Assembly (NCBI GenBank): GCA_017651065.1
Contig: JAGCDP010000024.1
Coordinates: 1-64,000 of the forward strand
Length of the DNA: 64,000 nt
Direction of reading: 5' to 3'
DNA from: Treponema sp.
Lineage (GTDB): Bacteria; Spirochaetota; Spirochaetia; Treponematales; Treponemataceae
Position 1 is the first letter of the stretch; every line of letters begins with the position of its first letter. Shown here one piece after another: positions 19,978 to 34,920 of this stretch. The translations under genes were made by a program, and so were the position numbers. The notes below the pieces were generated by a model. The model saw only the letters and a program-made list of their open reading frames with translations. It was not told the origin of the DNA and did not search any database.

Positions 19978-21501
19978 ATGGACTTAATGAAGCTTCAGAA
20001 CGGAAGTGACGTACGCGGTGTTGCCGTAGCAGGTGTGGAAGGAGAAAACGTAAACCTCACTCCCGAAATTGCATCAAAAATAGGCTGTGCCTTTGTAAGC
20101 TGGCTTAGCAAAAAAACAAAAAAATCAGCTGGAGAATTGACAATTGGTGTAGGCCGCGATTCCCGTGTTTCAGGGCCTGCTCTTGCAGATGGACTCATCG
20201 CAGGAATCCTTAGCACAGGTGCAAAAGTTGTAAACTGTAACATGGCAACAACTCCTGCAATGTTCATGTCTATTGTTTTTGAACAGTCTAAATACGACGG
20301 CTCTGCAATGATTACTGCAAGCCATCTTCCATATAACCGAAACGGAATTAAATTCTTCGATGCCGACGGAGGCCTTGAACACGAAGATATTACCGATATT
20401 CTGGAAATTGCAACTCAGCTTCCTGAAGATTATGTTGAAAACACAGTAAACAATGCCGCAGTAAAAATGGTTCCTTCTTTTGATCTGCTTGGAGTTTACG
20501 GCGCTTATCTTAAAGATAAAATTGCTGCTGCCCTTGCAGGTCTTGGTAAAGGTGACAAGCCTTTGAGCGGTCTTCACATTGTAGTAGACAGCGGTAACGG
20601 TGCAAGCGGATTTTTTGTAGACAAAATCCTTCAGCCACTTGGTGCCGACACAACAGGAAGCCAGTTCCTTGAGCCGGACGGAATGTTCCCTAACCATATT
20701 CCAAACCCTGAAAACAAACAGGCCATGGAAGCAATCCGTTCTGCAGTTCTTGCAAACAAAGCCGACCTTGGTTTGATTTTTGATACAGACGTTGACCGTA
20801 TGAGTGCCGTTTTGAGTGATGGCAGCGAAGTAAACCGCGATTCAATTATTGCCATGATTGCTGCAATCCTTGCTCCTGAATATCCGGGTTCAACAATCAT
20901 TACAGACAGTGTTACAAGTGACCGCCTTACATACTTTTTGCAGGATGTTCTTGGTCTTAAGCATTTGTGCTACATGCGCGGTTATAAAAATGTTATCAAC
21001 AAGCAGAAGGAATTGAACGCCGCAGGAACTGTTGCTCCTCTTGCAATGGAAACTTCCGGTCACGGTGCCCTTAAAGATAATTACTTTCTTGATGACGGTG
21101 CCTTCCTTGCAGTAAAGCTTGTTATTGCTTTAGCACAGGCAGCCGCTACAGGCAAAAAACTCGACAGCTTGATTGAAAAGCTTCCTCCTCTTGTAGAAGA
21201 AGGTGAGTACCGCTTTAAGATTGCCGGAGATGATTTTAAGGAATACGGTAAGGGCGTGCTTGAAGAGTTCAAAAAACGCGCCGCTGCAGCCGGTTACGAA
21301 ATGCCACAGTCTTACGAAGGTGTGCGCCTTTCATTCAAGGGTGAAGATATTCAGGGCTGGATGTTACTTCGTCTGAGCCTCCACGATCCTGTTATGCCGC
21401 TTAATATTGAAGGTGGCCGCAAAGGCGATTTACCAAAGCTCGTAGAAATTGCCAAAAAACTGACAGACGGATTTGACAGATTAGACAGGTCTTGCTTATG
21501 A
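19978..21501 (+). CDS. Phosphoglucomutase/phosphomannomutase family protein
   Basis: A 507-residue alpha-D-phosphohexomutase that moves phosphate between C1 and C6 of a hexose. The phosphoserine loop is MITASHLPYNRNG (Ser115), the metal loop FDTDVDRM (near 265), a sugar-binding loop ETSGHGA (near 360), and the C-terminal phosphate-binding loop falls in LSLHDPVMPLNIEGG. AGGAGAAATAT precedes the ATG. The first residues (QNGSDVRGVAVAG) match the family. The stop overlaps the sirtuin gene start (ATGA). Whether glucose or mannose phosphate is preferred cannot be told. Confidence 0.9.
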   Translation: MDLMKLQNGSDVRGVAVAGVEGENVNLTPEIASKIGCAFVSWLSKKTKKSAGELTIGVGRDSRVSGPALADGLIAGILSTGAKVVNCNMATTPAMFMSIVFEQSKYDGSAMITASHLPYNRNGIKFFDADGGLEHEDITDILEIATQLPEDYVENTVNNAAVKMVPSFDLLGVYGAYLKDKIAAALAGLGKGDKPLSGLHIVVDSGNGASGFFVDKILQPLGADTTGSQFLEPDGMFPNHIPNPENKQAMEAIRSAVLANKADLGLIFDTDVDRMSAVLSDGSEVNRDSIIAMIAAILAPEYPGSTIITDSVTSDRLTYFLQDVLGLKHLCYMRGYKNVINKQKELNAAGTVAPLAMETSGHGALKDNYFLDDGAFLAVKLVIALAQAAATGKKLDSLIEKLPPLVEEGEYRFKIAGDDFKEYGKGVLEEFKKRAAAAGYEMPQSYEGVRLSFKGEDIQGWMLLRLSLHDPVMPLNIEGGRKGDLPKLVEIAKKLTDGFDRLDRSCL

Positions 21502-22235
21502 ACGAAAAAATCTCCCAGCTCCAGAAAATAATCGACGAGTCAAAAAACATCGTCTTCTTTGGCGGTGCGGGCGTTTCAACAGAATCAGGAATCCCGGACT
21601 TCCGCAGCGTAGACGGTCTTTACAACCAGCAGTGGAAATATCCTCCGGAAACAATCATAAGTCATTCATTTTATGTGCACGACCCAGTAGAGTTCTACCG
21701 TTTTTACAGAGCCAAACTGCTCCCGACAGGTTTTGAACCAAATGCAGCTCACTACAAGCTTGCAGAACTGGAAGCTGCCGGTAAGCTCAAAGCAGTTGTT
21801 ACTCAGAATATAGACGGTCTGCACCAGAAAGCAGGCAGCAAGGTAGTCTACGAACTCCACGGCAGCACCCTGCGCAATTACTGTACAGGCTGTGGCAAAT
21901 TCTACGACGACAAATTTATTGCTGATAGTGAAAACGCTCCGGACAAACTTCCTCGTTGTACAGAATGCGGCGGCCTTGTAAAACCGGACGTTGTTTTATA
22001 TGAAGAAGGCCTCGACGACAACGTAATCCGTGGTGCTGTTAATGCAATTTCTGCTGCAGACACCCTTATTATTGGAGGAACTTCTCTGGTAGTTTATCCT
22101 GCTGCATCTTTTGTAGATTATTTTCATGGGAAGAATCTTGTACTGCTTAATAAGTCTGCAACTTCTAAGGATAATTATGCTACCCTGGTAATTCACGAGC
22201 CTATTGGCCAGGTTCTGAGTCAGATAAAAGTGTAA
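21498..22235 (+). CDS. cobB: NAD-dependent protein deacylase, Sir2 family
   Basis: A 245-residue sirtuin that removes acyl groups from lysines using NAD. The motifs are GAGVSTESGIPDFRS, TQNIDGLHQKAGS, and the catalytic His in ELHGS. The zinc site is CTGC...CTEC. The C-terminal GTSLVVYPAAS completes the NAD pocket. Its ATG overlaps the mutase stop, so expression is coupled. It ends by overlapping 35 bases of the convergent UPF0489-like gene. The Ala/Tyr/Arg pattern that would decide deacetylase against desuccinylase was not assigned. Confidence 0.93.
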   Translation: MNEKISQLQKIIDESKNIVFFGGAGVSTESGIPDFRSVDGLYNQQWKYPPETIISHSFYVHDPVEFYRFYRAKLLPTGFEPNAAHYKLAELEAAGKLKAVVTQNIDGLHQKAGSKVVYELHGSTLRNYCTGCGKFYDDKFIADSENAPDKLPRCTECGGLVKPDVVLYEEGLDDNVIRGAVNAISAADTLIIGGTSLVVYPAASFVDYFHGKNLVLLNKSATSKDNYATLVIHEPIGQVLSQIKV

Positions 22236-23658
22236 AGGTTATAGTCCTGGCTCGGAAATATTTGTTGTCAGGATTCTTCCAGCCTTCCAGTCCCAGGCCT
22301 GCCTTATTAGAAAGTCTTTGTAAAAATTCCTCTTTTGAATATTCCCTTTCAAGTGCAATTGCAGCCTGAAGAAGTGTTATTTCTCCGTCCGGGGTCTGCA
22401 GTAAAAGACTGTGCAAGCCCGGTTCAAAATCAAGACTCAAAGACATTTCTTCCCATTCATCAAAAATCGAAAGATTTATAAAAAGCTCGTCTTTCTCTTC
22501 TTCAACAATATCCGGGTAACGCGGGTCAGTAATTGCTTCCTTTGTGCAATATTGAACTGCTGCAGGGATATCATCAAATACAACACCCCTGTATAAAGCA
22601 AGGCAGCCCCTGTCTACATCTTTGTTTCTAAAGCGTACTGCCAGTCCATAAGTTTTTTCTTGTTTCTGTAGAACCTGCTTTGGTGTCGCAAAATCTGTTC
22701 CATTAAAATACTGCTGCATGCTTGTTTTTGAAAGCCGGCATAAATCGTCAAGCAATTCGTAAGAAAACTTATTCTTTAGCTTAGCAAGCCCCTCGTCATT
22801 CCAGCTCTTTATAATTGTTTCTGCCAGAGAATTTCCCGCTTTGATTTTTTTCTGCTTTAAAGCAGTAACTACAGAGTCTGGAGCATTCTGCCACAGGTAG
22901 GCACCCTTATAAAAAGCAGCCTGTGATTTTTTGAATTCAAAAGGAAGCTTTTGCCAAAGTTCATGGGCGGCCTGTTCTTCCTTGCTTTCTTCGGCTTCTC
23001 CAAAACTTCCGCTTTCTAAAAACCACACAGCCCTATTCTTATAGCCTTTGATAAATTGTTCAAACCAGGTCCAGGCTTCTTGAGGTTTGGGCTGGTAGGC
23101 TGCAGAAAAAGCCAGTGTTAAAAGTTCTGGCTTCTGCTTTTGTATCCATTTGCTCAGTTCATCAACAAAAAGCTTGGGGTCATCACCCGGGTCTTTTGTA
23201 AAAACATCAAAATCAAGAGTAATGACAAAGGGACTATTTATTTTGCGTTTTTGTAAATCATACCAGTCAACAAGTTCAACAGCCTGCTTTATTTTTTCTA
23301 CTGTTTGTGGATAGGAATTCTGCAGACTGCGATCCAGCCAATCCATACGGGAATTTCTGTTAGGCAGTAAAAGCTTTTTTCCCGAAAGCCAGATAACCTT
23401 TTCAAGATAATTTTCTTCAATCAGTTTTCCAACCCAATTATAGCTTGTAAGTTCATTTGTGTCGGAGTTAATATCATGATGATAATCAAGCAGCACTAAA
23501 GTTATAGGGCCCTGAGCCTGTGCAAAAGCCTTTACATAATCATAAGAAAGCCCGTGTCTGTCGTGTACATGTATTTGTGTTTGTCTCTTGCCGCAGGAAG
23601 AAAAACATATCGGACTTAGCAAAAGAACAAAAAATGTAAGGACAATTTTCTTTTTCAT
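22201..23658 (-). CDS. Lipoprotein with UPF0489-like domain
   Basis: A 485-residue exported protein with lipobox FSSC (Cys22). The N-terminal half has an arginase-like UPF0489 pattern: HDRHGLSYDYVKAF, VLLDYHHDINSD and FVITLDFDVF, with His and Asp residues placed like metal ligands. The remainder is helical and unassigned. Residues 46-51 (AQAQGP) are encoded by a sequence resembling family A (CCCTGAGCCTGTGCAAAAG), possibly a decayed copy. The gene overlaps the sirtuin gene tail to tail and ends in TAG. Enzymatic activity is inference. Confidence 0.65.
   Translation of the reverse strand: MKKKIVLTFFVLLLSPICFSSCGKRQTQIHVHDRHGLSYDYVKAFAQAQGPITLVLLDYHHDINSDTNELTSYNWVGKLIEENYLEKVIWLSGKKLLLPNRNSRMDWLDRSLQNSYPQTVEKIKQAVELVDWYDLQKRKINSPFVITLDFDVFTKDPGDDPKLFVDELSKWIQKQKPELLTLAFSAAYQPKPQEAWTWFEQFIKGYKNRAVWFLESGSFGEAEESKEEQAAHELWQKLPFEFKKSQAAFYKGAYLWQNAPDSVVTALKQKKIKAGNSLAETIIKSWNDEGLAKLKNKFSYELLDDLCRLSKTSMQQYFNGTDFATPKQVLQKQEKTYGLAVRFRNKDVDRGCLALYRGVVFDDIPAAVQYCTKEAITDPRYPDIVEEEKDELFINLSIFDEWEEMSLSLDFEPGLHSLLLQTPDGEITLLQAAIALEREYSKEEFLQRLSNKAGLGLEGWKNPDNKYFRARTITFTLLSDSEPGQ
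23507..23530 (+). repeat. Possible decayed family A repeat within the UPF0489-like gene
   Basis: GGGCCCTGAGCCTGTGCAAA... shares its first 16 bases with family A copies, then diverges (GCAAAAG in place of CGAAGGG). Confidence 0.4.
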
Positions 23659-23711
23659 CGGCTTAATTATCGCATATAGACAGTCAATTTGAAAAGTATC
23701 ATACTACAATT

Positions 23712-26411
23712 ATGAAAAAGAATTTTTATTTTTTAATGTTTACATTTATTTTGGTTTCTTTGTTTTCCTGTAAAAAGCAGAAGGAACAGGAAGTCGTTGA
23801 AGAACCTCAGACAAGTATTGTTCAGGAGGAAGTTCCTCCACAGCCCCTTGAGCCGGAGCCTGCTAAGCCAAGACATGTCAGTTTTGATGCTGCTTATAAT
23901 TTTGTAGATCAGGAGCTTTCATTAACTGCTTTTCATACAGATGCTCACAGCGAATTTCTTGATGACCCTATGGTCTTTATGGAAATTCCTAATCAGGGAA
24001 TTGAGGAAGGCAAGACAGCGGTTGTAGCCAGTTATGTGTGTATGCTTTATCCGGATGAGGCTTTTACCTTTAAGGGAGGAGGTGAGGCTTTAATAAATCC
24101 GAATATAGATTCTCTGGGAGTTCCGGTTCCTTTTGGCACAATCGTTCAAATAGAAAAAAAACTTGATAATTACGAAGAAATAAATGCTTATGCACAGCGC
24201 ATGTTCAATTTTCAGGATAACTGGAATTGGTTTTACTATGTAAAATATGGTGATACCCAAGGTTGGGTTTATGGTGCCGATTTGTATGGAATTAACGATA
24301 CAATAGAAAACAACAGGGTTTCTGCAATGCTTTATCAGACCAAGGGAAAGTTTGAAGAATTCTATCCGGTTACAGGTTATATAGCACTTGAAGAAAATGT
24401 CATGACAAGTCTTGAAAATAATAAACTTGCCATTCAGCAGGTAACTCCTGAGTCTTATGTTTCCATAGATGATATGGTGGATTTATACAGAAATTTGCAG
24501 CGTAAAAAGAATCTTCCTGTTTTTATAACAACAGATTTTGCAGCTCATTGTCAGCATTTGATTTTTGACCGCATGCTTCAGTATACAGAAGAAGAATACT
24601 TCCTTCCTGCAATGAGTGAGCTTACAGATGCTTTTATTACTGCCTTGGAAAAACGTATCGATGCCCCTGCTGATGTTCGTGAAAAAGCCATTCAATATTT
24701 TCAGGTGCCACAGCTTATTATGAAGACTGCCCCTTCAGTAGAAGGAGACGGTTCTTATTATAGTCCTATTGTATATGTTGATCAGTCTACTGATGCCATA
24801 AATGAAATTCTTTCACAGTATCCTGCTGCTGTTCAGACCGATTACAAAAGCATAATGAGTGCAGCGCCTGGCACAGAAGAAATCTTTCAGGAAGACGAGG
24901 ATTTTTCACAATATAAGCCACGCGGGCATTATACAAAAAACGGTTTGCTTGAAACTTATTTCCGTGCTCAGATGTGGTATGGTCATCTTCATTTTTCAAT
25001 TGCAAAGCCAAAGAGTGGACAGACTCTTCCTCAGGCAATTCTGGACAAGGAAGCTGCAATGATGCTTATTGTTGATACGGTTCAGAAAGATGATACTTTG
25101 TATTATATGTGGTCGGAACTTTTTGAGCCTATAACAGCCCTTATAGGTATGTCTGATGATTTGAGTTTTTATGATATCTGTCCTCTTTGGAAAGACCAGA
25201 ATGTTACAGATTTTTCACAATGGGCTTCGGATCAGAATAATCTTCATTCATTTATGAGTCTTTGTGCCGCCACTCTGCGTCCTCCTGCAATAAGCGGACA
25301 GTCAGTATTCAATATGTATTCCGAGCAGGATGAAGAAACAGGTATGCCAAGTGTTCCTATGGGCTGGAGACTTTTTGGGCAGCGTTTTACTTATGATTCT
25401 TTTGTTCATGAAAAAGTTTCTCCTCCTCGGCTTCTGTCCCGGGATTTTGTAAGAGGACTTGATATAATGAAGGCCTTTGGTTCTAAAACAGCAGAAGCCC
25501 TGCTTGCTAAAACAGACTATCAGACTATGCCGGGGTTAAAAGAAGTCCTCGATTCCTTTGAAACAGAAATTGCTGCTTATGACTCTTCCTTCTGGAATCA
25601 AAGCTATTATAATCAGGTTTTGTATCAGGTAAAAACTCAGGCAACCTTTGAACAGGGGGCAGGTTTTTATTTTACAGAAACTCCTGCCTGGAATATAAAA
25701 TCTCAGCTTGCAGCACATGGAACCTGGGCCGAGCTCAGGCATGATACAATCCTTTATGTAAAGCAGACTGCCGCAGAACGTGCCGGTGACGGAGATTTTG
25801 ATCCAACCTTCAGAACAGAGCCGCTTCCAAAGCCTGTTCATTATGTAGAGCCAAATGTTCCTTTCTGGGAAGGTTCAGTTAATTCTGTTGCTAATTTAAT
25901 AAAGATTTATAATTTCTATGGACTTCTTGATTCTGATTCCGAAAGAACTCTCAATAGTCTTATGGAAATGTATCAGCGTCTGCTTGCTATTTCTAAACAG
26001 GAGGCACAGAACCTTCCGATTTCCCAAAGTGATAATGACTGGCTGCCTACAGTTGCTTCTTCTTTTGGAAATTTAGTTATGGTTCATAACAGAAACGGTT
26101 ATATTTCTGATAACGATTTGCTCAAGATGGCCTGTATTGCAGATGTTTTTACCAATAATGATTATGGCGCTTGTCTTGAGGTGGGAGTTGCTGTTCCATT
26201 TAGATTGTATATTCCGCTTAACGATTCTCAGGGTGGAAAAAGAATTGCAATCGGCTATGGCTTTAGTTATGTTGAATTCTTACAGTCCGCTGAGGATCGT
26301 ATGACAGATGAACAATGGAAGACAATTGTATATAAAACTCATAAGGATAACTTAGATGAATATATGCCTTTCTGGGAAAAAGAATGTATATTAGACGCAA
26401 CAAAATTCTAA
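23712..26411 (+). CDS. DUF3160-domain lipoprotein with SH3-like region
   Basis: An 899-residue exported protein with lipobox LFSC (Cys20) and a Pro/Glu-rich linker (PPQPLEPEPAKP). Residues about 100-200 hold an SH3-like segment (VPVPFGTIVQIEKKL ... TQGWVYGADLYG). The large remainder matches DUF3160 in features such as LPVFITTDFAAHCQHLIFDR and ETYFRAQMWYGHLHFS. Its 3' end overlaps the Memo-type gene by 28 bases, so the two are coupled. DUF3160 has no established function. Located at the cell envelope by its signal. Confidence 0.75.
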   Translation: MKKNFYFLMFTFILVSLFSCKKQKEQEVVEEPQTSIVQEEVPPQPLEPEPAKPRHVSFDAAYNFVDQELSLTAFHTDAHSEFLDDPMVFMEIPNQGIEEGKTAVVASYVCMLYPDEAFTFKGGGEALINPNIDSLGVPVPFGTIVQIEKKLDNYEEINAYAQRMFNFQDNWNWFYYVKYGDTQGWVYGADLYGINDTIENNRVSAMLYQTKGKFEEFYPVTGYIALEENVMTSLENNKLAIQQVTPESYVSIDDMVDLYRNLQRKKNLPVFITTDFAAHCQHLIFDRMLQYTEEEYFLPAMSELTDAFITALEKRIDAPADVREKAIQYFQVPQLIMKTAPSVEGDGSYYSPIVYVDQSTDAINEILSQYPAAVQTDYKSIMSAAPGTEEIFQEDEDFSQYKPRGHYTKNGLLETYFRAQMWYGHLHFSIAKPKSGQTLPQAILDKEAAMMLIVDTVQKDDTLYYMWSELFEPITALIGMSDDLSFYDICPLWKDQNVTDFSQWASDQNNLHSFMSLCAATLRPPAISGQSVFNMYSEQDEETGMPSVPMGWRLFGQRFTYDSFVHEKVSPPRLLSRDFVRGLDIMKAFGSKTAEALLAKTDYQTMPGLKEVLDSFETEIAAYDSSFWNQSYYNQVLYQVKTQATFEQGAGFYFTETPAWNIKSQLAAHGTWAELRHDTILYVKQTAAERAGDGDFDPTFRTEPLPKPVHYVEPNVPFWEGSVNSVANLIKIYNFYGLLDSDSERTLNSLMEMYQRLLAISKQEAQNLPISQSDNDWLPTVASSFGNLVMVHNRNGYISDNDLLKMACIADVFTNNDYGACLEVGVAVPFRLYIPLNDSQGGKRIAIGYGFSYVEFLQSAEDRMTDEQWKTIVYKTHKDNLDEYMPFWEKECILDATKF

Positions 26412-27265
26412 TATTTCCCTTAGCTTTAATTGTCCTTTTTGTTGACTCCGGTATTTGCGGCTGCAAAAAGCAAGAGGGGCAGCTTATAAAGACCTGGGAT
26501 TATCTTGGAGAGCCTGTTCCCATACAAGTGTCTTGGCCAGATATAGAGGCATTACCGCCAAAGAAGGCACTGGTTTGGGGAGGAACGGTGAGTCATCATC
26601 TTCTTGCAGATAAACAGATAGACCGCTGGTTTTATGAAATAGCGCAAAACCGGAAGGTAGAAACTTTTTTTATTATTTCTCCTTCGCATTACGGACTTTC
26701 AACTCAGGAATGGTCGCTTGATGATTGTATCTGGCAGACAAAAAGCGGAATGGTTTATACGAATCAGAAGGAAGAAAAGGCCCTGGCAGAAAAGCTTGGC
26801 GTACAATATGACAGTCAGGTTTTTCCGGATGAACATGGAATTAATACCCTTATTCCATATATTTCGCGGTATTTTCCAAAGGCCAGGGTTTGTGTAATTA
26901 CAGTTTATGGGGAGCCTCCTCTGAACCAGAAAAATGCACAAAAGCTTGCCGATGCCCTGCAGCCCTATTTTACTCAGAAGGAAAAGAAGAAAAATTTTCT
27001 TTTGATTTCTACAGACTTTGCACATCATGGAAATCTTGAGGGAACTGAGTTTAAGGACAAGCGCAGTCGTGAGTTTTTTAATAATCCGTCTGATTCAAGC
27101 TGGGTTTTCTGTGGCTGCGATAACCGTCCCGGAGTTTATGTGCTTTCTCGTTTTCTTACAAAACAGACAAAATCAGCAGTGCTTTTTCATACAAACTCTT
27201 ATGAGCTTTCCGGCTTTGATGAAGATGATATAACAAGTTATTTTTTCAGTTTTTTTTACGATTAG
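26384..27265 (+). CDS. Exported Memo-family (AmmeMemoRadiSam system protein B-like) lipoprotein
   Basis: A 293-residue protein with a Memo domain behind a signal peptide ending in GICGC (Cys26-27). Memo landmarks are present in altered form: GTVSHHLLA, SPSHYG, DEHGIN, STDFAHHG and FCGCDNRPG. Memo proteins are metal or redox-linked and are normally cytosolic, so the lipid anchor is unusual. The start overlaps the DUF3160 gene. No AMMECR1 or radical-SAM partner lies nearby. It ends with TAG. Function unknown. Confidence 0.75.
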   Translation: MYIRRNKILIFPLALIVLFVDSGICGCKKQEGQLIKTWDYLGEPVPIQVSWPDIEALPPKKALVWGGTVSHHLLADKQIDRWFYEIAQNRKVETFFIISPSHYGLSTQEWSLDDCIWQTKSGMVYTNQKEEKALAEKLGVQYDSQVFPDEHGINTLIPYISRYFPKARVCVITVYGEPPLNQKNAQKLADALQPYFTQKEKKKNFLLISTDFAHHGNLEGTEFKDKRSREFFNNPSDSSWVFCGCDNRPGVYVLSRFLTKQTKSAVLFHTNSYELSGFDEDDITSYFFSFFYD

Positions 27266-27341
27266 GTTTATACAAAAAAAATCTATATTTATACAAAAAT
27301 TTCTCTCGCATTTTTTCTATAATCTGATATAATATATTTTA

Positions 27342-27356
27342 GTAAATCGTTTAACC
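27342..27356 (+). promoter_or_regulatory. Candidate LacI-type operator upstream of GH51 gene
   Basis: GTAAATCGTTTAACC is a near-palindrome with a central CG. It follows a TATAAT at 27328-27333 by 8 bases, so it would sit at the transcription start. Closely related sites precede the GH43 gene (36104-36118) and the esterase gene at 40296 (40261-40275). Confidence 0.45.
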
Positions 27357-27394
27357 TATTGGAGCAGAAATCCGTGGGTTTGGAGGACTTTTTT

Positions 27395-28870
27395 ATGGAT
27401 TATGTTGTTGTAAACTGTAACCGCGACGGAGAAAAAATCAATCGCGATATTTACGGACACTTTAGCGAGCATCTTGGCCGCTGTATATATGGTGGTTTCT
27501 GGGTTGGAAAGGATTCTAAGATTCCTAATATCAACGGTTACCGTAAGGATGTTGTAGAGGCCTTTAAGGAAATTGAAATCCCTAACCTGCGCTGGCCGGG
27601 CGGATGTTTTGCCGATGAGTATCACTGGCGCGATGGTATTGGTCCTTACGAGACCCGCAAACGCATGATCAATACTCACTGGGGCGGTGTTGTAGAAGAT
27701 AACAGCTTTGGTACTCACGAATTTTTTGGGCTTTGTGAGGCTCTTGGCTGTAAGCCTTATGTAAATGGAAACGTTGGTTCCGGTACTGTTCAGGAAATGT
27801 CTGAATGGGTTGAATATATTACTTTTGGCGGCGAGTCTCCTATGAGTAAGCTGCGCGAGGCTAATGGTCACAAGGCTCCCTGGAAGCTTCCGCTGTTCTG
27901 TGTTGGTAATGAAAACTGGGGCTGTGGTGGTAATATGAAGCCTGAATATTATGCAGATTTGTATCGCCGCTACCAGACTTATGTGCGACAGTATGGGCCT
28001 GATAAGATTTTTAAAATTGCCTGTGGTCCTAATGCCGGCGACTTTAACTGGACTGATGTTGTTATGAAAAATGCGGCTCAGTATATGGACGGGCTTTCGC
28101 TTCACTATTACACTGTTGAGCCAGATTGGGGTAGCCGTACTCCTGCTGCTGAGTTTGATGATAAGAGATGGTACCTTTGTTTGAGTAAGGCCAGCTGGAT
28201 GAAGTATCTTGTAGAAACTCACAGTAAGATTATGGACAAGTACGATCCTGAAAAGCGCGTTGCCCTTGTTGTTGACGAATGGGGAACCTGGCATGCTGTA
28301 GAAAAGGGAACTAACCCTGGATTCCTGTACCAGCAGAATACTGTTCGCGATGCATTGGCTGCCGGTATTACTTAGAATATCTTTAATAATCACTGCGATC
28401 GTGTTCGCATTGCAAATATTGCTCAGGCTGTAAACGTTCTTCAGTCTCCTGTTTTGACTGAAGGCGCCAAGATGATTAAAACTCCAACCTGGTATGTATT
28501 CCACATGTACAAAGATCACATGGATGCAACTCATCTTGAAAGCTTTGTTTCTACCGAAACTATTGGAATTGCCGATGCCAAGGTTGACGCTGTTACTGTT
28601 TCTGCTTCTCACAAGAAGGGCGACTACACTGTAACTCTCACAAATGCCGATTTGAACAAGGCCAGAACTGTTACTGTTAGACTTGATGGTCTTAAGAGTA
28701 TTAGTGGTGCAGAGGGTCGCGTGCTTGCCGGTAAGCTTAAGAACAGCATGAACACCTTCGACAAACCAAACGAAGTTGTAGAAAAGAAATGCAAGGTTGA
28801 AATTGCAGAAAACACTGTTACTGTAAAGATGCCTGCAAGAAGCGTTGTTTCTTTGAAAATTAAGAAATAA
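27395..28870 (+). CDS. GH51 alpha-L-arabinofuranosidase, interrupted by one in-frame TAG
   Basis: Reading from 27395 (GGAGGAC upstream) to the TAA at 28870 gives 491 residues, a normal GH51 length, if the TAG at 28373-28375 (codon 327) is read through. The acid/base Glu is in [10 protein letters not shown] (near 171) and the nucleophile Glu in VVDEWGTWH (near 293). After the TAG the frame continues at once with [17 protein letters not shown], a conserved GH51 stretch; the family has a hydrophobic residue at the TAG site, so TTG to TAG is the simplest change. There is no frameshift. The enzyme removes arabinose side chains from arabinoxylan or arabinan; no signal peptide, so it acts in the cytoplasm. 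It is either inactivated, suppressed, or a sequence error. Confidence 0.85.
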
Positions 28871-28908
28871 ATTATCAGATTGCCATGCCACTGCGACTAA
28901 AGGCATTC

Positions 28909-28988
28909 GTCATTGCGAGCCCGCAGGGCGTGGCAATCCAGTGTCATTGTCGCGGTCCCTGAGCCTGTCGAAGGGTGACCCGACAATC
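28909..28988 (+). repeat. Repeats: family B (28909-28940), then family C split by a family A copy
   Basis: The C element is present as its left part (GTCATTGTCG, 28943-28952) and right part (TGACCCGACAATC, 28976-28988), separated by a family A copy (28954-28975, GGTCCCTGAGCCTGTCGAAG...). This is a nested arrangement. Confidence 0.85.
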
Positions 28989-29004
28989 TAATTTCTGAAT
29001 TATT

Positions 29005-29259
29005 ATGTCTGATCCCTGTCCAGTTTGCGAATCAAAAAAAGAATTAGCCTCAATGGAAATGACTCCCGAACTCGTGGAAGAAATGGCTGCTGCCGAGCCG
29101 GTCGCCGACTTTTGTGGGGAGCAGGAATTAGCGAGGCGGCTGGATATTTGTGGTGGGTGCCCACGTCTTGTAAATCAAATGACCTGTGCCGAGTGCGGAT
29201 GCTTTGTGCAATTTCGTGCCAGACATGCCACTGCGCATTGTGCATTAGCGAAGTGGTAA
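29005..29259 (+). CDS. Small Cys-rich protein, DUF6171-like
   Basis: An 84-residue protein with eight Cys. An N-terminal CPVC is followed after an acidic stretch by RRLDICGGCPRLV, CAECGCFVQFRARH and a final Cys before KW. The CxxC pairs suggest a zinc ribbon, and the C-terminal pattern resembles DUF6171 proteins common in gut bacteria. It lies just before the array, with no obvious ribosome site. Function unknown. Confidence 0.65.
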   Translation: MSDPCPVCESKKELASMEMTPELVEEMAAAEPVADFCGEQELARRLDICGGCPRLVNQMTCAECGCFVQFRARHATAHCALAKW

Positions 29260-29486
29260 TTTTGGGTCCCTAAGACAAAACTCGGGGTCCCTGGGCTTGT
29301 CGAAGGGCGTTGCCATTATAATCCACGCGAATTCCTAAAAAAAATCAATATAGTCACTATTTCTCCTCTTTTTTCTCAGAATTCCTCTAAAAAAACAAAA
29401 ATTTTTCATCTTTTTTAAACTTTTTTTCCAAATTTTTGTAATAAGTCGATTTTTTTGGACATATTATATATAGAAAAATTTTATTT
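29260..29486. other. Gap before the array: family A copies and AT-rich leader
   Basis: One family A copy lies at 29286-29307 (GGTCCCTGGGCTTGTCGAAG...), after a partial one near 29264-29276. From 29311 the sequence is strongly AT-rich, with two direct copies of GAATTCCT followed by A-runs (29330 and 29381). Several TATTAT/TATATA stretches at 29462-29472 could serve as a -10 box for the array and the nuclease gene. No coding frame is supported. Confidence 0.5.
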
Positions 29487-30028
29487 ACACGCGATTTACC
29501 TGTCCCCAGTATTTGCGCGTGTAAACAGGTATTCCCAAGAGTGTCCAAGACACGCGGAACCGGGGTGGTGAAGTAATTCGCGTGTAAGAGTATCGTGGCG
29601 GTAGCTGGCAGATACACGCGAAACGAGAAGTGAGTGGTAAATCGCGTGTAAAGGTTCCTGCCTATTGAGCAACAAGACACGCGGTACAGGCGTAATGGAG
29701 TGAATCGCGTGTAAATGTCACAGCATGCGAGGAGCCCGTACACGCGAAACCCAGGTGTATATGGAATACGCGTGTAGGAGTATCGTGGCGGGAGCTGCAA
29801 GATACACGCGAAACATAAGTGGGAATGCAAATCGCGTGTAAAGATTCCTAACTGTTGAGTATCAAGACACGCGATTCAGACGTTTTGGTGTGTCTCGCGT
29901 GTAAGTGCCGCAACATACGAGACAGTCGTACACGCGAAAGTCTTGTGGAAGGGCATTCCGCGTGTATTGTGGAACATATAGGATAATTACATACACGCGA
30001 AAAAGCTCAAATAAGGCAAACCGCGTGT
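29487..30028 (+). repeat. Array of nine inverted ACACGCG/CGCGTGT pairs, 63-64 bp period
   Basis: ACACGCG starts at 29487, 29550, 29614, 29677, 29740, 29804, 29867, 29930 and 29993. Its reverse complement CGCGTGT starts at 29516, 29579, 29643, 29706, 29769, 29833, 29896, 29959 and 30022. Every pair encloses exactly 22 nt of variable sequence, and consecutive pairs are separated by 27 or 28 nt. Flanking T/A bases lengthen some arms to 10 bp (TTTACACGCG with CGCGTGTAAA in unit 1). Many 22-nt loops carry GT at positions 9-10. The linkers fall into classes that recur every three units. The last arm ends 15 bases before the nuclease start codon. The repeat is too short for a CRISPR and no cas gene is seen. 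It could be a chain of RNA stem-loops or a set of phased DNA-binding sites. Confidence 0.93.
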
Positions 30029-30043
30029 AAAAGGAGGATTTTT

Positions 30044-30814
30044 ATGGAACAACTTAAACAGAAACAGACAGAGTTCTTGAATCTGGCAAAAAGGCTTCAG
30101 GATTATATAAAAACTGCACCAAAAGAAAAACTCAGAAGCAGGAAAAAAGGTTCACACTATCAATATTATCTGGAGAAAAACAAGAAGCGTACTTACATCG
30201 CCAAAAAGAATATTGAAACTGCCAGAAAAATTGCTCAGCGGGATTATTATCAAAAGCTGCTTCCTGGACTGTTAAAAAATCTCAAAGCTATGCAACATTT
30301 TTCAAAAGAATACAACACTACCAGTTTGGAACAAAGCTATACCAATCTCTCTGCAGCCCGTAAACAACTGGTGGAGCCCATATTCATAGACAACGTAACC
30401 TATGCATCTCAGTGGCAGGCAAAAAACTATGAACGCAAAAAAGATGCCCCAGATGGAAGCTTCCTTACCTTAAAAAATGAAGCTGTCCGTTCAAAATCAG
30501 AAATCATTATTGCAAATCTTTTGCACAATAAAAAAGTTCCATATCATTATGAATATCCACTCAAGCTATCTAATGGAGTGACAATTCACCCAGACTTTTT
30601 CTGCCTGAACAAACGAACCCGCCAGGAGTTTTACTGGGAACATTGTGGCAAAATGGATGATTTAGAATATACTGTGAGCCTGACCCAAAGACTATCAGAA
30701 TACTCCAAATGTGGAATTTTCCCAGGCAAAAATCTTATCATAACAATGGAAACTGGCAAAATCCCTTTGGAAACAAAAAATGTGGAACGCATAATAGAAA
30801 CATTTTTGAAATAA
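30044..30814 (+). CDS. PD-(D/E)XK-like nuclease encoded directly downstream of the array
   Basis: A 256-residue protein with a perfect GGAGG ribosome site that follows the last array arm. The C-terminal half has nuclease-like motifs: Glu153 in VRSKSEIIIANLL, Asp184 in IHPDFF, and Glu199-His200 in FYWEHCG, which stands in place of the usual (D/E)xK; GIFPGKNLIITMET follows. The N-terminal half is basic and helical: a coiled coil (1-30), LRSRKKGSHYQYYL (30-43), YIAKKN and AQRDYYQKLL, which could bind nucleic acid. Similar proteins with YWEH motifs occur in gut Firmicutes as uncharacterised genes, by memory. No signal peptide. Function is unknown; the array directly in its leader makes a shared function or autoregulation likely. 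Confidence 0.8.
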   Translation: MEQLKQKQTEFLNLAKRLQDYIKTAPKEKLRSRKKGSHYQYYLEKNKKRTYIAKKNIETARKIAQRDYYQKLLPGLLKNLKAMQHFSKEYNTTSLEQSYTNLSAARKQLVEPIFIDNVTYASQWQAKNYERKKDAPDGSFLTLKNEAVRSKSEIIIANLLHNKKVPYHYEYPLKLSNGVTIHPDFFCLNKRTRQEFYWEHCGKMDDLEYTVSLTQRLSEYSKCGIFPGKNLIITMETGKIPLETKNVERIIETFLK

Positions 30815-30921
30815 TACAAAAAACATAGATTTTCTGTTATTTATTTTTTTAGTTTATTTTTATAGAAACTGTTATATAATAAGAACAAAGGAATTCTTTT
30901 TCAAAAATGGAGATGTAAAAA

Positions 30922-32031
30922 ATGGTAAAAATAAAGTGGCTTGGATTATTAACGGCTATGACTTTATTGGCAGCTTCCTGTAAGGTTAGTGTAACACCGT
31001 CTGGAGGTGGAGAAAATGCCGCGTACAAAGCCGGTGACACAGCTCTGGCAAAAATCAAAATAGGCAATACGGAATATGACAATACTGCAGAAGTTTATGT
31101 AACAGGTCCAGATGGTGCGACAATTGTTGGAAAAGGGAACTCAGGTGTTTTTATAGAAGGTCGTACAGTTATTTTAAGTCCTTATGTAATGGGTAAATAT
31201 GAAGTAACTCAGGAACTGTATACTGCTGTAATGACAGAACAGTCAGTTGTAATAAATGAAGAAGTCAAGATATTGAATGCAGCTCCATTTCAGAATATGT
31301 TCGGTAAAGATTATGTAATGGCAGATGGCGAAATCCAAGAGTATCGCCCCGTAGAATTTATAACTTGGTATGATGCAGTTTATTTTTGTAATGCATTGAG
31401 CGAAAAAATGGGACTCGAAAAAGCTTACAAAATTACTGCAATTGAATTAGCAGGTAAAGGAAAGATTTATGATGCAACAGTTGAATTAATCCCTGAGGCA
31501 AACGGTTATCGTCTGCCAACAGAGGCAGAATGGGAATTTGCAGCAAGAGGTGGCAATCCTTCAAAGCCTGATTGGGATTATGCTTTTAGTGGGTCACCAA
31601 CAGGAAAAGATTCTTATAACCAAGATGCAACTATTGGAAGCAGGTTTAATACAGGTTTAGATGCAGTTGGTTGGTATTTGTATAATCTCTTACATGGTAA
31701 ATCAATGAAAGAAGAGACTTTAAAAGGTAGACCTGGATATGGACCGCATCAAGTTGGAATGAAAGAATGTAATGTACTTGGTATCTTCGACATGAGCGGA
31801 AATGTTATTGAATGGTGTTATGACAGATATAATTCTAGCGTTATTGCAGGGGATAATGATAATGAAACAGTGATAAATCCTGTAGGAGATCCCTCGAACA
31901 AAAATCGTATTGAACGTGGTGGGGCTTGGGATTATGAAGCTGGTGTCGCTTGCATATTTTGGAGAGGTTACACAAGTGCAAATAACTTTGGTGATTCTAT
32001 TGGCTTCCGCGTGGTTCGCTCTGCACCATAA
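30922..32031 (+). CDS. FGE/SUMF1-like C-type-lectin-fold lipoprotein, possible variable protein
   Basis: A 369-residue exported protein with lipobox AASC (Cys20). From residue 80 it follows the formylglycine-generating-enzyme fold: YVMGKYEVTQELYTAVM, PVEFITWYDAVYFCNALSEK, YRLPTEAEWEFAARGG, DMSGNVIEWCYD. The C-terminus runs RIERGGAWDYEAGVACIFWR through NNFGDSIGFRVVRS. In treponemes this fold is used by targets of diversity-generating retroelements, whose variable region lies exactly here. No reverse transcriptase or template repeat is in the window. True sulfatase-activating function is unlikely for an exported lipoprotein without a sulfatase neighbour. An AT-rich promoter region precedes it. 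Confidence 0.8.
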   Translation: MVKIKWLGLLTAMTLLAASCKVSVTPSGGGENAAYKAGDTALAKIKIGNTEYDNTAEVYVTGPDGATIVGKGNSGVFIEGRTVILSPYVMGKYEVTQELYTAVMTEQSVVINEEVKILNAAPFQNMFGKDYVMADGEIQEYRPVEFITWYDAVYFCNALSEKMGLEKAYKITAIELAGKGKIYDATVELIPEANGYRLPTEAEWEFAARGGNPSKPDWDYAFSGSPTGKDSYNQDATIGSRFNTGLDAVGWYLYNLLHGKSMKEETLKGRPGYGPHQVGMKECNVLGIFDMSGNVIEWCYDRYNSSVIAGDNDNETVINPVGDPSNKNRIERGGAWDYEAGVACIFWRGYTSANNFGDSIGFRVVRSAP

Positions 32032-32068
32032 GAATAGATACAGAAACAAGTTCAGCATGACAAATTAA

Positions 32069-32182
32069 GTCATTGCGAGCGCAGCGTGGCAATCCAGTTA
32101 TTAGAATGCATTCTTATATGTGGATTGCCACGTCGCTATCGCTCCTCGCAATGACGAGGGCTTTTTGTCCTCGCAATGACGA
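32069..32182 (+). repeat. Dispersed repeat family B, inverted pair plus partial copy
   Basis: A direct copy (32069-32096), an inverted copy (32121-32156) and a further CTCGCAATGACG fragment (32170-32181) lie between two convergent genes. As RNA the pair would form a long hairpin and may serve as a two-way terminator. Confidence 0.8.
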
Positions 32183-32186
32183 ATTG

Positions 32187-33980
32187 TTATTTCTCCCACT
32201 CAACCTGAACGCTTCTTTCATCCTTGTTAGGAATGCGCTGGTAGATGATACAATCTGCCTTATGAATTGAAACTCCCTTGCTTCTTGTTACATAGCCCAT
32301 GATTAAATCCGGGTAGTGCGGATGGCAGCACTGGGCCAGGTTGTAGAGGACATTTTTTTCGCCTTGAACGAGGACTTTTTTATCCGGATATGAAATAACC
32401 TGTGGCTGGATGCCTCTTTTTGGGCGGCGTTTTTTCTGTGGTTCCTGGGCGGCTTCTGAGGCGGCGGCACTTGTTGTAGTTACTGTTGTTGCAGCAGCAT
32501 TCACCCTTTCGCTAAATGTCGGGTCGTTAGTCATGAGCCAGCTGTGGATTTTCTGGTGGGCCTTAGTTGTCTTTACAATCTTGAGCTGGGCCTCTGTCGG
32601 ATGAGCCTGAGGATTTGTGATAATCTCAATAATCTGTGTATTCTGAAGCGGGCGGTTCAACGGAATGATTTTTCCGTCTGCCTTGGCACCTACTATTTTT
32701 TCACCAATGTCTGAGTGAATTGCATATGCAAAGTCTATGGCTGTGGCACCGGCGCGAAGTCTCTTTACATCGCCTTTTGGGGTGAATACATAAATCTCAT
32801 CACCGAGAAGTTCGTCTTTAAGTTCCGAGAATGATTTGTCATCAGAAAGCGAGGCCTGCTTAAGTGCCTGGAGCCTGTTCATAATATCAAGCTTGTCTTC
32901 TTCGACCAGGTCTTTGTTTGAGCCCTTCTTATATAACCAGTGAGAAGCAATACCGTGCTCGGCCATGTTGTGCATGTCTACTGTGCGAATCTGGATTTCC
33001 AGAGGCTTTCCTTCACACATTACAGTTGTATGCAGCGACTGATAACCGTTTGATTTTGGCATTGCGATGTAGTCTTTAAATCGTCCGTCGAGCGGTTTCC
33101 AAAGGCTGTGAACAATTCCTATAAGCGCATAACATTCAGCCGGTGCCTGACACAAAATACGAAGGGCCAGCAAATCATAAAGCTCACTTGCTTCCTTGTT
33201 GCGCTTTCTCATCTTCTGATAAATCGAATAATAATGTTTTGCGCGGCTTTGAATTGTAACTGTGAGTCCAACCTTTTGAGTTGCCTTTAAAATTGCCTGA
33301 GTTGCCTTTCCCAGATATTCAGCCTATTCTTCCGAAGACTGGCTTACAATATTTTTTATCTGAAGGTATGCATCGGGGTTTGTATATTTAAGGCTCAAAT
33401 CTTCAAACTCATTTTTTTCCTTTTGCATTCCCATGCGTTCTGCGAGCGGGGCCCATACTGCAATTGCTGCTTCGGCAATCACCTTCTGATATTCACGGCG
33501 GATATGATTGATATTTCGCATTCTATCCAGACGGTCTGCAAGAGAAATAAAAATGATTCGTACATCATCAGACATTGCAAAAAACATTTTTCTGATTGCG
33601 TCTGACTGATGAAGAGTTTTTGTATTAATAGGAATATTGAGAATCTTGTTTGTTGTATCTGTAATATTTGCAACTGTGTCGCCAAAAAGCTCGCGGACCT
33701 GCTCTGTCGTAACTCCATATTGATTAATAGAATGAAGCAGTGCCGAAATGATAGTAGGGCAGTCAAGTTTATTCTGAGACAGGATTTCTGCAACTCTGAG
33801 CGGATGAACATAATAAGGCTCGCCGCTTGAACGGGTTGTGTCTTTTGTGTTTTCTACAAGCAGCTCCCACGCCTTTGTGATTTCTGATTTTTCTTCCGGG
33901 GCAAGATAATCATGTGCTGCAAAATAGCTTTGCAGTAAGGTTTGAGGATCTGTGGATGTAAAAATAATTTCATTGTTCAT
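32187..33980 (-). CDS. RelA/SpoT family (p)ppGpp synthetase, interrupted by one in-frame TAG
   Basis: The frame from 33980 to 32187 encodes 597 residues if the TAG at 33324-33326 (codon 219) is read. The sequence on both sides belongs to one protein (IKNIVSQSSEE then AEYLGKATQAILKATQKVGL). An N-terminal HD domain is degenerate: ALLHSINQYG stands where active hydrolases have HDxxED. The synthetase domain is intact (KDYIAMPKSNGYQSLHTT, EIQIRTVDMHNMAEHGIASH). A TGS domain follows (DEIYVFTPKGDVKRLRAGAT), then a short Cys/His tail, and no ACT domain. It makes the stringent alarmone; hydrolysis is unlikely. It starts 11 bases inside prmC, so prfA-prmC-relA is one operon. Confidence 0.85.
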
Positions 33981-34920
33981 GTGTCATTTCTACAACGCGA
34001 AGCTGCCCTTCCAAATCGGTGTGAAGCTGTGTTGTAAAACCAAGTCCGCCGGCAAAATCTGCGGTGGCCTGCGCGTTGTATTCACCGGTCTCCATTAGAA
34101 TTGTACCGTTATTTGCAAGATGTTCGCAAGACTGTTGGAGGAGTTTTTTTATTAGGTGAGTGCCATCATGTGGTCCCTGAGCCTGTCGAAGGGCCATATC
34201 GCCATCCAGTGCAAGACGAGGCTCATTTCTACCATCCTTCAAAAGTTCATCAACCATTTTACTTGGAATATACGGCGGGTTAGTCAAAATAAAATCAAAC
34301 TTACCCTCAACTTTTTCAAACAAATCAGACTGAATAAATGTAATTTTCTGCAGAATCTCGCTATCCGGCAAAAGATGTGCTGCATTCTTTTTTGCAATCG
34401 CCAGTGCCGGTTCACTGATGTCTACCATAGTCAACAAAGGCAGTTTTTCTACAGGCACTTTTCCAACGGCATACAAAGTTTTCATCACAGCAATTCCAAT
34501 GCATCCGCTGCCGGTACACATATCGCAAATTGCAAGCGGGTGGGCGGCGGCATCAGATCCAGCTTCATCACCAGATCCAATTCTCTCCATAGTCAACTCA
34601 ACCGCATGCTCAACAAGAATCTCTGTATCAGGCTTAGGAATCAGAACATCAGGCGTAACAAAAAAATCATAGCCGTAAAACTCTTTCACGCCAGTAATGT
34701 AAGCCACGGGCAGCCCTGTCTTCCTTTTACCGATTGCTTCGTTGAGCCATGTCAATTTGTCATCAGGAATATGATTCTCTGCAAAAAGCAGCAGCTGAGT
34801 TTTATCGTATTTGAGGGCGTGAGACAAAAGAACCTCTACATCAAGCGCGGGGCTCGGAGAGGTTCCCTGTAATTCTTTAATCGCGAGATTTTTAAAATCA
34901 CGTATTGTTGCACTATGCAT
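33970..34920 (-). CDS. prmC: Release factor glutamine methyltransferase
   Basis: A 316-residue enzyme that methylates the Gln of the GGQ motif in release factors. The N-terminal helical domain is followed by the SAM site (ICDMCTGSGCIGIAVM) and the catalytic NPPY at 214-217. After EPRLALDG the family usually continues with a short Gly/Asp turn into LI; here about a dozen residues (DMALRQAQGPHDG) are encoded largely by a family A repeat at 34172-34194. It overlaps the end of prfA by 8 bases, giving an operon in which enzyme and substrate are made together. Confidence 0.93.
   Translation of the reverse strand: MHSATIRDFKNLAIKELQGTSPSPALDVEVLLSHALKYDKTQLLLFAENHIPDDKLTWLNEAIGKRKTGLPVAYITGVKEFYGYDFFVTPDVLIPKPDTEILVEHAVELTMERIGSGDEAGSDAAAHPLAICDMCTGSGCIGIAVMKTLYAVGKVPVEKLPLLTMVDISEPALAIAKKNAAHLLPDSEILQKITFIQSDLFEKVEGKFDFILTNPPYIPSKMVDELLKDGRNEPRLALDGDMALRQAQGPHDGTHLIKKLLQQSCEHLANNGTILMETGEYNAQATADFAGGLGFTTQLHTDLEGQLRVVEMTHEQ
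34172..34194 (+). repeat. Dispersed repeat family A inside prmC
   Basis: GGTCCCTGAGCCTGTCGAAG... lies in the coding strand complement and adds the peptide RQAQGP after the conserved LALDG of PrmC. Confidence 0.85.

Follow-up and report, generated by a model that had tools for sequence, protein, structure and literature searches.

A predicted PD-(D/E)XK nuclease gene of Treponema sp. preceded by a helically phased array of inverted heptamers, a candidate site of autoregulation

Within a 64,000-nucleotide stretch of DNA from Treponema sp. (hereafter the window), a predicted nuclease gene is preceded by nine inverted pairs of a 7-nt arm. The array lies between a promoter-like block and a ribosome-binding site, and arrays with other arms recur before homologues of the gene in three phyla. 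Their units are spaced at whole turns of the DNA helix, and arm sequence is statistically linked to a β tip in the encoded protein. On balance, we consider it likely, if not strongly so, that the predicted nuclease binds its own phased array, through which it would hold down its own expression, a form of autoregulation.

The features of the locus are collected in Table 1. All nine units are exact, with a length of 36 and start-to-start distances of 63 or 64. A single arm is used in two orientations, the intervals being 22 nt within units and 27–28 nt between them, and a 190-bp step relates units 2–4 to units 5–7. On recounting, the description given in an earlier note on this DNA (nine inverted heptamer pairs, an inner distance of 22 nt, a period of 63–64, and an end 15 bases before the ATG) proved correct in every particular. 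The 22-nt inserts do vary, as that note had pointed out, but they are not special, since over arrays in general the linkers are equally variable (mean identity 0.49 for loops and 0.51 for linkers over 43 arrays; Wilcoxon p 0.56). The promoter-like block ends right before unit 1, which would place the entire array within the presumed transcribed leader. This block is missing from the output of a consensus promoter scan, and its hexamers are 20 bases apart. Similar blocks precede unit 1 in several Treponema arrays and are also found elsewhere without arrays, as would be the behavior of a promoter class. Separately, a promoter-like block of the form TTTTTGTAAGAAGTC...AATATTATATATG (L169–L187) repeats in these genomes at array-free places and is possibly a lineage-specific promoter class.

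Table 1. Coordinates of the array, the nuclease gene, and associated features in the window
Feature	Position	Strand	Remarks
Promoter-like block	29431–29475	+	Predicted; TTGTAA at 29436–29441, TATTATATATA at 29462–29472; adjoins unit 1 upstream
Phased array, nine inverted units	29487–30028	+	ACACGCG-N22-CGCGTGT; center spacing 63–64 bp
Unit 1	29487–29522	+	
Unit 2	29550–29585	+	
Unit 3	29614–29649	+	
Unit 4	29677–29712	+	
Unit 5	29740–29775	+	
Unit 6	29804–29839	+	
Unit 7	29867–29902	+	
Unit 8	29930–29965	+	
Unit 9	29993–30028	+	
Ribosome-binding site AAGGAGG	30031–30037	+	By eye
Predicted PD-(D/E)XK nuclease gene	30044–30814	+	256 aa
N-terminal coiled-coil hairpin (helices 2–24 and 54–89) with three-stranded β tip	30044–30397	+	Mean pLDDT 93 and 95
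β tip, residues 28–51	30125–30196	+	Likely arm reader; arm similarity tracks tip identity
C-terminal PD-(D/E)XK domain, residues 139–256	30458–30811	+	E153, D184, E199

The nuclease fold proposed earlier is supported by structure matches. The C-terminal domain resembles PD-(D/E)XK structures (TnsA, Bax1, VRR-NUC, DrdV, and others) in fold and acidic triad, and a test of the core fold agrees. The triad of E153, D184, and E199 is invariant across 91 aligned sequences, and H200 occupies what we take to be the position that is usually lysine in PD-(D/E)XK proteins. Where the window protein departs from TnsA and the other matches is in its coiled coil and β tip, for which structure matches were sought and none was convincing. 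Neither Pfam nor NCBIfam places the protein in a family at cut-off. Transposases found no Pfam match in 91 family sequences (the window protein included) or in ten neighboring ORFs, the Nop domain none in the 91 family members at E 0.01, and Cas none for the window protein or, by Pfam, in the ten neighbors. The earlier statement that all three are absent stands for the protein and its ten Pfam-scanned neighbors (21492–34920).

Those ten ORFs, and eight examined with PADLOC, gave housekeeping-type matches and nothing that explains the array; the same Pfam scan served as the search for Tn7 partner genes. Several features of the surroundings are recorded here in their own right. Just upstream of the array is an 84-aa DUF6171 protein (29005–29259); its upstream neighbor here also adjoins similar DNA in genomes G008, G014, and G015. 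In G014 and G015 this neighbor gene (27267–28870) forms a single ORF of 493 aa, arabinofuranosidase-like by eye, and is represented here by two plus-strand ORFs (27359–28375 and 28454–28870); a long minus-strand ORF at 27267–28870 has no Pfam family match. On the 3′ side of the nuclease gene is a lipoprotein-like ORF with an FGE-sulfatase domain (30922–32031), which was not found in G008 in the stretch that separates the nuclease gene from the next shared DNA. At 32190–33980, two adjacent minus-strand ORFs contain RelA_SpoT plus TGS domains and an HD_4 domain, resembling a Rel protein split in two. Dispersed repeats of the CATTGCGAGCGCAGCGTGGCAATCC and GGTCCCTGGGCTTGTCGAAGGG types occur at 28909–28980, 29282–29308, and 32069–32160, with copies in the window's own genome (G000), G008, G015, and G019.

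The family is large. Thirteen of the 59 genomes searched (the window's own included) contain relatives, all of one genus by label, with six matches in the window's own genome; 22 named genomes have 2–9 family matches each, fragments included. A scan of public genomes gave at least 558 relatives among the 589 pattern matches listed, and a protein search at least 4,575 among 7,996 candidates scored. The public loci analyzed, the best 80 of the at least 558 relatives, come from Treponema (including T. bryantii B25, NK4A124, and XBD1002), Fibrobacter, and Lachnospiraceae and other Clostridia. One of these 80 is on a contig labeled Elusimicrobiaceae and has an arm identical to that of Treponema loci. 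This locus, L066, is very similar to Treponema locus L065 in gene, arm, and a downstream small-heat-shock-like ORF (by eye), which reflects either mis-binning or recent transfer. At another locus, tandem 37-bp repeats lie immediately 3′ of a family nuclease gene (L127:3763–3873). Among 72,556 plasmid records there was no place covering 80% of the window protein, and among 50,697 phage records a single one had such a place. Plasmid matches of the nuclease domain alone include AAA ATPases and a RecD-like helicase, from Bartonella, Vibrio, Rhizobium, Hymenobacter, Embleya, and others.

The earlier note had taken array and nuclease gene to belong together, and a comparison of homologues with unrelated genes agrees with it. 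An array was scored where the 900 bp upstream contained three or more exact units of an inverted 6–9-mer, of whatever sequence, with constant span; these thresholds were set once the first arrays were known and before later loci were fetched. By this definition, arrays precede 57 of 107 non-redundant homologues (from the 59-genome set and public contigs) and none of 108 control genes (from the 80 public contigs only); with mismatches allowed, the figures are 72 of 107 and 2 of 108. Strict arrays are distributed over Treponema-type sources (39/67), Lachnospiraceae (11/27), other Clostridia (2/2), Fibrobacter (4/8), the Elusimicrobiaceae label (1/1), and others (0/2). Shuffling the best 80 of the at least 558 public loci (20 shuffles per locus) produced a maximum of 1–2 units. 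A later check of 40 further loci, 37 of them testable, found at least three units at 22, strict in 19 of these, and no array at 15. With mismatches allowed, the detector likewise found none at 35 of the 107 homologues, some of which have degenerate arrays (as at G000:C29) or little upstream DNA. MAGs make up many of the genomes, and contigs break at arrays, as in G019, where the window-type locus is divided at its array between contigs C90 and C41; absences are therefore uncertain. Arms differ between homologue families and are common to close relatives; those found before relatives include TTACGTGAG, TACGTGCA, TCCGACTTAAC, CCTACAG, TACGGATAA, CCATAAA, GTACATATA, and TGGGTACC, among others.

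The spacing of the units follows the helix. Unit centers lie about 42, 53, 63, 74, 84, 95, 106, 116, 127, 137, or 148 bp apart, with hardly any distances between these values. The 225 spacings of the strict arrays, 57 in number, fit best to a period of 10.54 bp (bootstrap 10.48–10.62; R 0.88, phase 0.06 bp); when repeats of a spacing class within an array are left out (n = 96), the best fit is at 10.62, with R 0.87. By comparison, 300 random spacing sets gave a 99th percentile R of 0.29 for the best period within 6–20 bp. The later loci gave R 0.87 at 10.54 bp for 79 spacings and R 0.83 for the 29 distinct ones. Spacing by whole turns of B-DNA points to sites on double-stranded DNA bound on one face, an arrangement expected of protein sites and not of a chain of RNA units.

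Which part of the protein would read the arm is suggested by covariation. Across 1,876 pairs from 72 arrays, arm similarity correlates with tip identity when nuclease-domain identity is taken into account (partial rank correlation 0.22, reached by 0 of 999 permutations), and the converse, arm similarity against nuclease-domain identity given the tip, is −0.013. Taken singly, positions 33 and 40, both in the tip, rank highest, followed by 168 and 248 in the nuclease domain. In 19 later arrays, the arm was better predicted from the nearest tip than from a partner drawn at random (0 of 5,000 draws; mean percentile 0.29); prediction from the nearest nuclease domain was also above chance (P 0.005). 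Arm sequence thus appears to track the β tip more than the nuclease domain, with a correlation that is modest.

These observations can be accommodated in a model of autoregulation. The β tip that caps the coiled coil would read the 7-bp half-site, two protomers would occupy one unit, and the resulting dimers would line up along a single face of the DNA duplex, an alignment that would allow neighboring units to be filled cooperatively. An occupied leader would block transcription, and paralogues within a genome would escape cross-talk because their arms differ. The leader position, the upstream bias, and the paralogue-specific arms fit a self-limiting operator array of this kind. A partial precedent is provided by the homing endonuclease I-TevI, which, in the portion of PMC2988022 drawn on here, represses its own gene from a binding site before it. 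In both cases, a nuclease has a site ahead of its own gene, binding being predicted in ours. Endonucleases of this autorepressing type bind the operator before their gene and cut it poorly; for ours, the point of comparison is the position of the array. I-TevI differs in having a GIY-YIG fold, a single operator that overlaps the promoter, and a homing site. The present nuclease is not known to have a homing site, and its operator would consist of as many as nine arrayed units. Simple autoregulation would not require arrays that lie downstream only (L083 and L124) or on both sides (L065, with two units in a short upstream stretch, and L066), each arrangement occurring in two of the best 80 public loci. 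A mere repressor, moreover, would have no need of invariant catalytic residues. Those residues and the gene-free arrays described below indicate that autoregulation is not the whole story; less certainly, the protein would also cut DNA somewhere, and the gene-free arrays would be extra landing sites for it.

Arrays of the same arms do exist away from the gene. Exact ACACGCG units among the 59 genomes number 20 in G000, 34 in G019, and 5 in G008, the three genomes with homologues at least 72% identical to the window protein, plus strays in G013 (1) and G041 (2); arm patterns read backward, as a control, give 0–2 per genome. Window-arm arrays are found elsewhere in G000 on contigs C6, C54, and C55 and at eight further places in G019. 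Similarly, TTACGTG units are confined to G000, G008, G019, and G026, each of which has a gene with that leader arm. The TTACGTGC form is represented by three arrays in G000, and its closest cognate gene was found in G019 only (G000 is 75% complete). Units of CCGACTTA occur in leaders only, none being gene-free by exact pattern in the three genomes having that arm. This pairing of arm and cognate gene across genomes, seen for three arms, counts in favor of a protein that reads its array. The 18 gene-free arrays examined, with orthologous pairs included and genes called as simple ORFs, are all intergenic: 12 lie between tandem genes, four between convergent genes, and none between divergent genes, two being unclassified. 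Never lying between divergent genes makes them unlike operators. Their spacings give R 0.965 at 10.5 bp (n = 72), a set dominated by 63-bp steps that other periods fit nearly equally.

Such arrays bring us to the main rival to autoregulation, or an addition to it: dispersal like that of REPINs by RAYTs, in which the nuclease would act at arrays, copies would spread between genes, and the leader array would be the home copy. We regard this as unlikely, though a reading to be taken seriously. The window-arm arrays scattered over G019 and G000 favor it, as do two G019 arrays about 4 kb apart with 72% identity over 397 bp, loops and linkers included, which are old copies of each other. A TTACGTGCA array of G019 is missing at the equivalent intergenic place in G026, G008, and G000, and the both-sided arrays of two loci, the several families per genome, and the near absence of full-length genes from plasmid and phage records point in the same direction. 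Against it, copy numbers are low, the CCGACTTA arm has no gene-free units in its three genomes, and target duplications or clean array ends were looked for and none was seen. Three gene-free arrays are kept in place between G000 and G019, their arms, which were selected by match, changed at 2 of 182 bases and their loops and linkers at 37 of 561; the smaller change in the arms, with that selection borne in mind, also speaks for the reading of the arms by the protein. Transposition, furthermore, would not need helical phasing.

The best parallel for what autoregulation leaves over is the REP–RAYT system. The part of PMC2817692 used here describes co-evolution between RAYTs and REPs, with abundant REPs in the presence of the cognate RAYT. 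REP/BIME (REPIN)–RAYT systems and the present one share a gene with its cognate short repeat, regular copies in alternating orientation as in BIMEs, repeat–protein co-evolution, and a repeat that is abundant only with the cognate gene (here for three arms in 59 genomes, apart from the strays in G013 and G041). The parts are different. RAYTs are HUH/Y1 tyrosine transposases, whereas the fold here is PD-(D/E)XK, and the inverted REPs on both sides of RAYT genes compare with both-sided arrays in two of the best 80 public loci. The arms are 7–9 nt in length instead of palindromic REPs, the units are helix-locked and mostly upstream, and copies are few.

An improbable alternative is that phased arrays act as decoys that keep a harmful nuclease inactive or off other DNA, as a store or a switch in defense. 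The invariant active-site residues and the presence of several phased sites near the gene would suit such sequestration. So would the relationship of the nuclease domain to the C-terminal part of PDC-S68, a PADLOC defense candidate (E 8e-27). By sequence, through its plasmid matches, the domain is related to helicase-fused nucleases as well. PDC-S68 models are, in contrast, about 1,200 aa in length, and the match begins at about residue 141 of the window protein, which leaves the N-terminal reader outside PDC-S68. The eight window neighbors gave only weak PADLOC matches, to RelA/SpoT- and methyltransferase-type housekeeping genes, and no defense system; no evidence speaks for toxicity, and arrays were not found at a third of homologues.

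It is more improbable still that the leader acts as RNA, folding into nine stem-loops with a role in transcriptional or translational control or in binding the protein. A 7-bp stem is possible in every unit, but 34 one-sided arm changes include 22 transitions of which 11 keep a G-U pair, the chance level and no sign of wobble bias. In 57 arrays, within-unit pairing of the bases that flank the arms is no better than their pairing across units, and both helical phasing and gene-free arrays outside leaders are at odds with this reading. The guide array contemplated in the earlier note, a TIGR-like transcript cut to 36-nt units whose inserts direct the nuclease, is the least credible of all: regular units, variable inserts, a likely transcribed leader, and a 36-nt length that is also that of tigRNAs (in the portion of PMC12045711 consulted) speak for it; against it stand B-DNA phasing, linkers as variable as inserts, the lack of wobble bias or excess intra-unit pairing, and the lack of a Nop domain by Pfam. 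That source describes TIGR-Tas as an array beside an effector, with repeats that stay the same throughout a locus and change from one locus to the next, a likeness that ends with the absence here of edge and loop repeats, the DNA phasing, and another nuclease fold. Two distinct repeats of 8–12 nt with spacers of about 9 nt have no counterpart in one arm in two orientations at intervals of 22 and 27–28 nt; TIGR arrays of a stem-loop kind are also described there, the comparison here being with the two-repeat kind. CRISPR, with longer direct repeats and Cas, is likewise unlike 7-nt inverted arms with no Cas match for the protein or its ten Pfam-scanned neighbors.

Returning to autoregulation, a family of nucleases that match nothing in Pfam or NCBIfam, with at least 4,575 relatives, is often accompanied by helix-locked DNA arrays. 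If the protein reads them, a compact domain for reading DNA comes with a ready training set of natural arm–protein pairs, and helical phasing can be put to the test. These may be self-addressed nucleases, of a kind previously undescribed, in at least three phyla of gut and rumen bacteria. We go further only tentatively, to a proposal that falls short of probable: a new and widespread class of chromosomal nucleases in Spirochaetota, Fibrobacterota, and Bacillota, in which each paralogue would have its own phased array, read by the tip, would control itself through it, and would seed intergenic arrays, in the manner of REPIN–RAYT with unrelated parts. It would be a second, independently built case of a gene living with its own dispersed repeats, and, if the class is real, the residue-to-base code of its β tip would be learnable from natural pairs.
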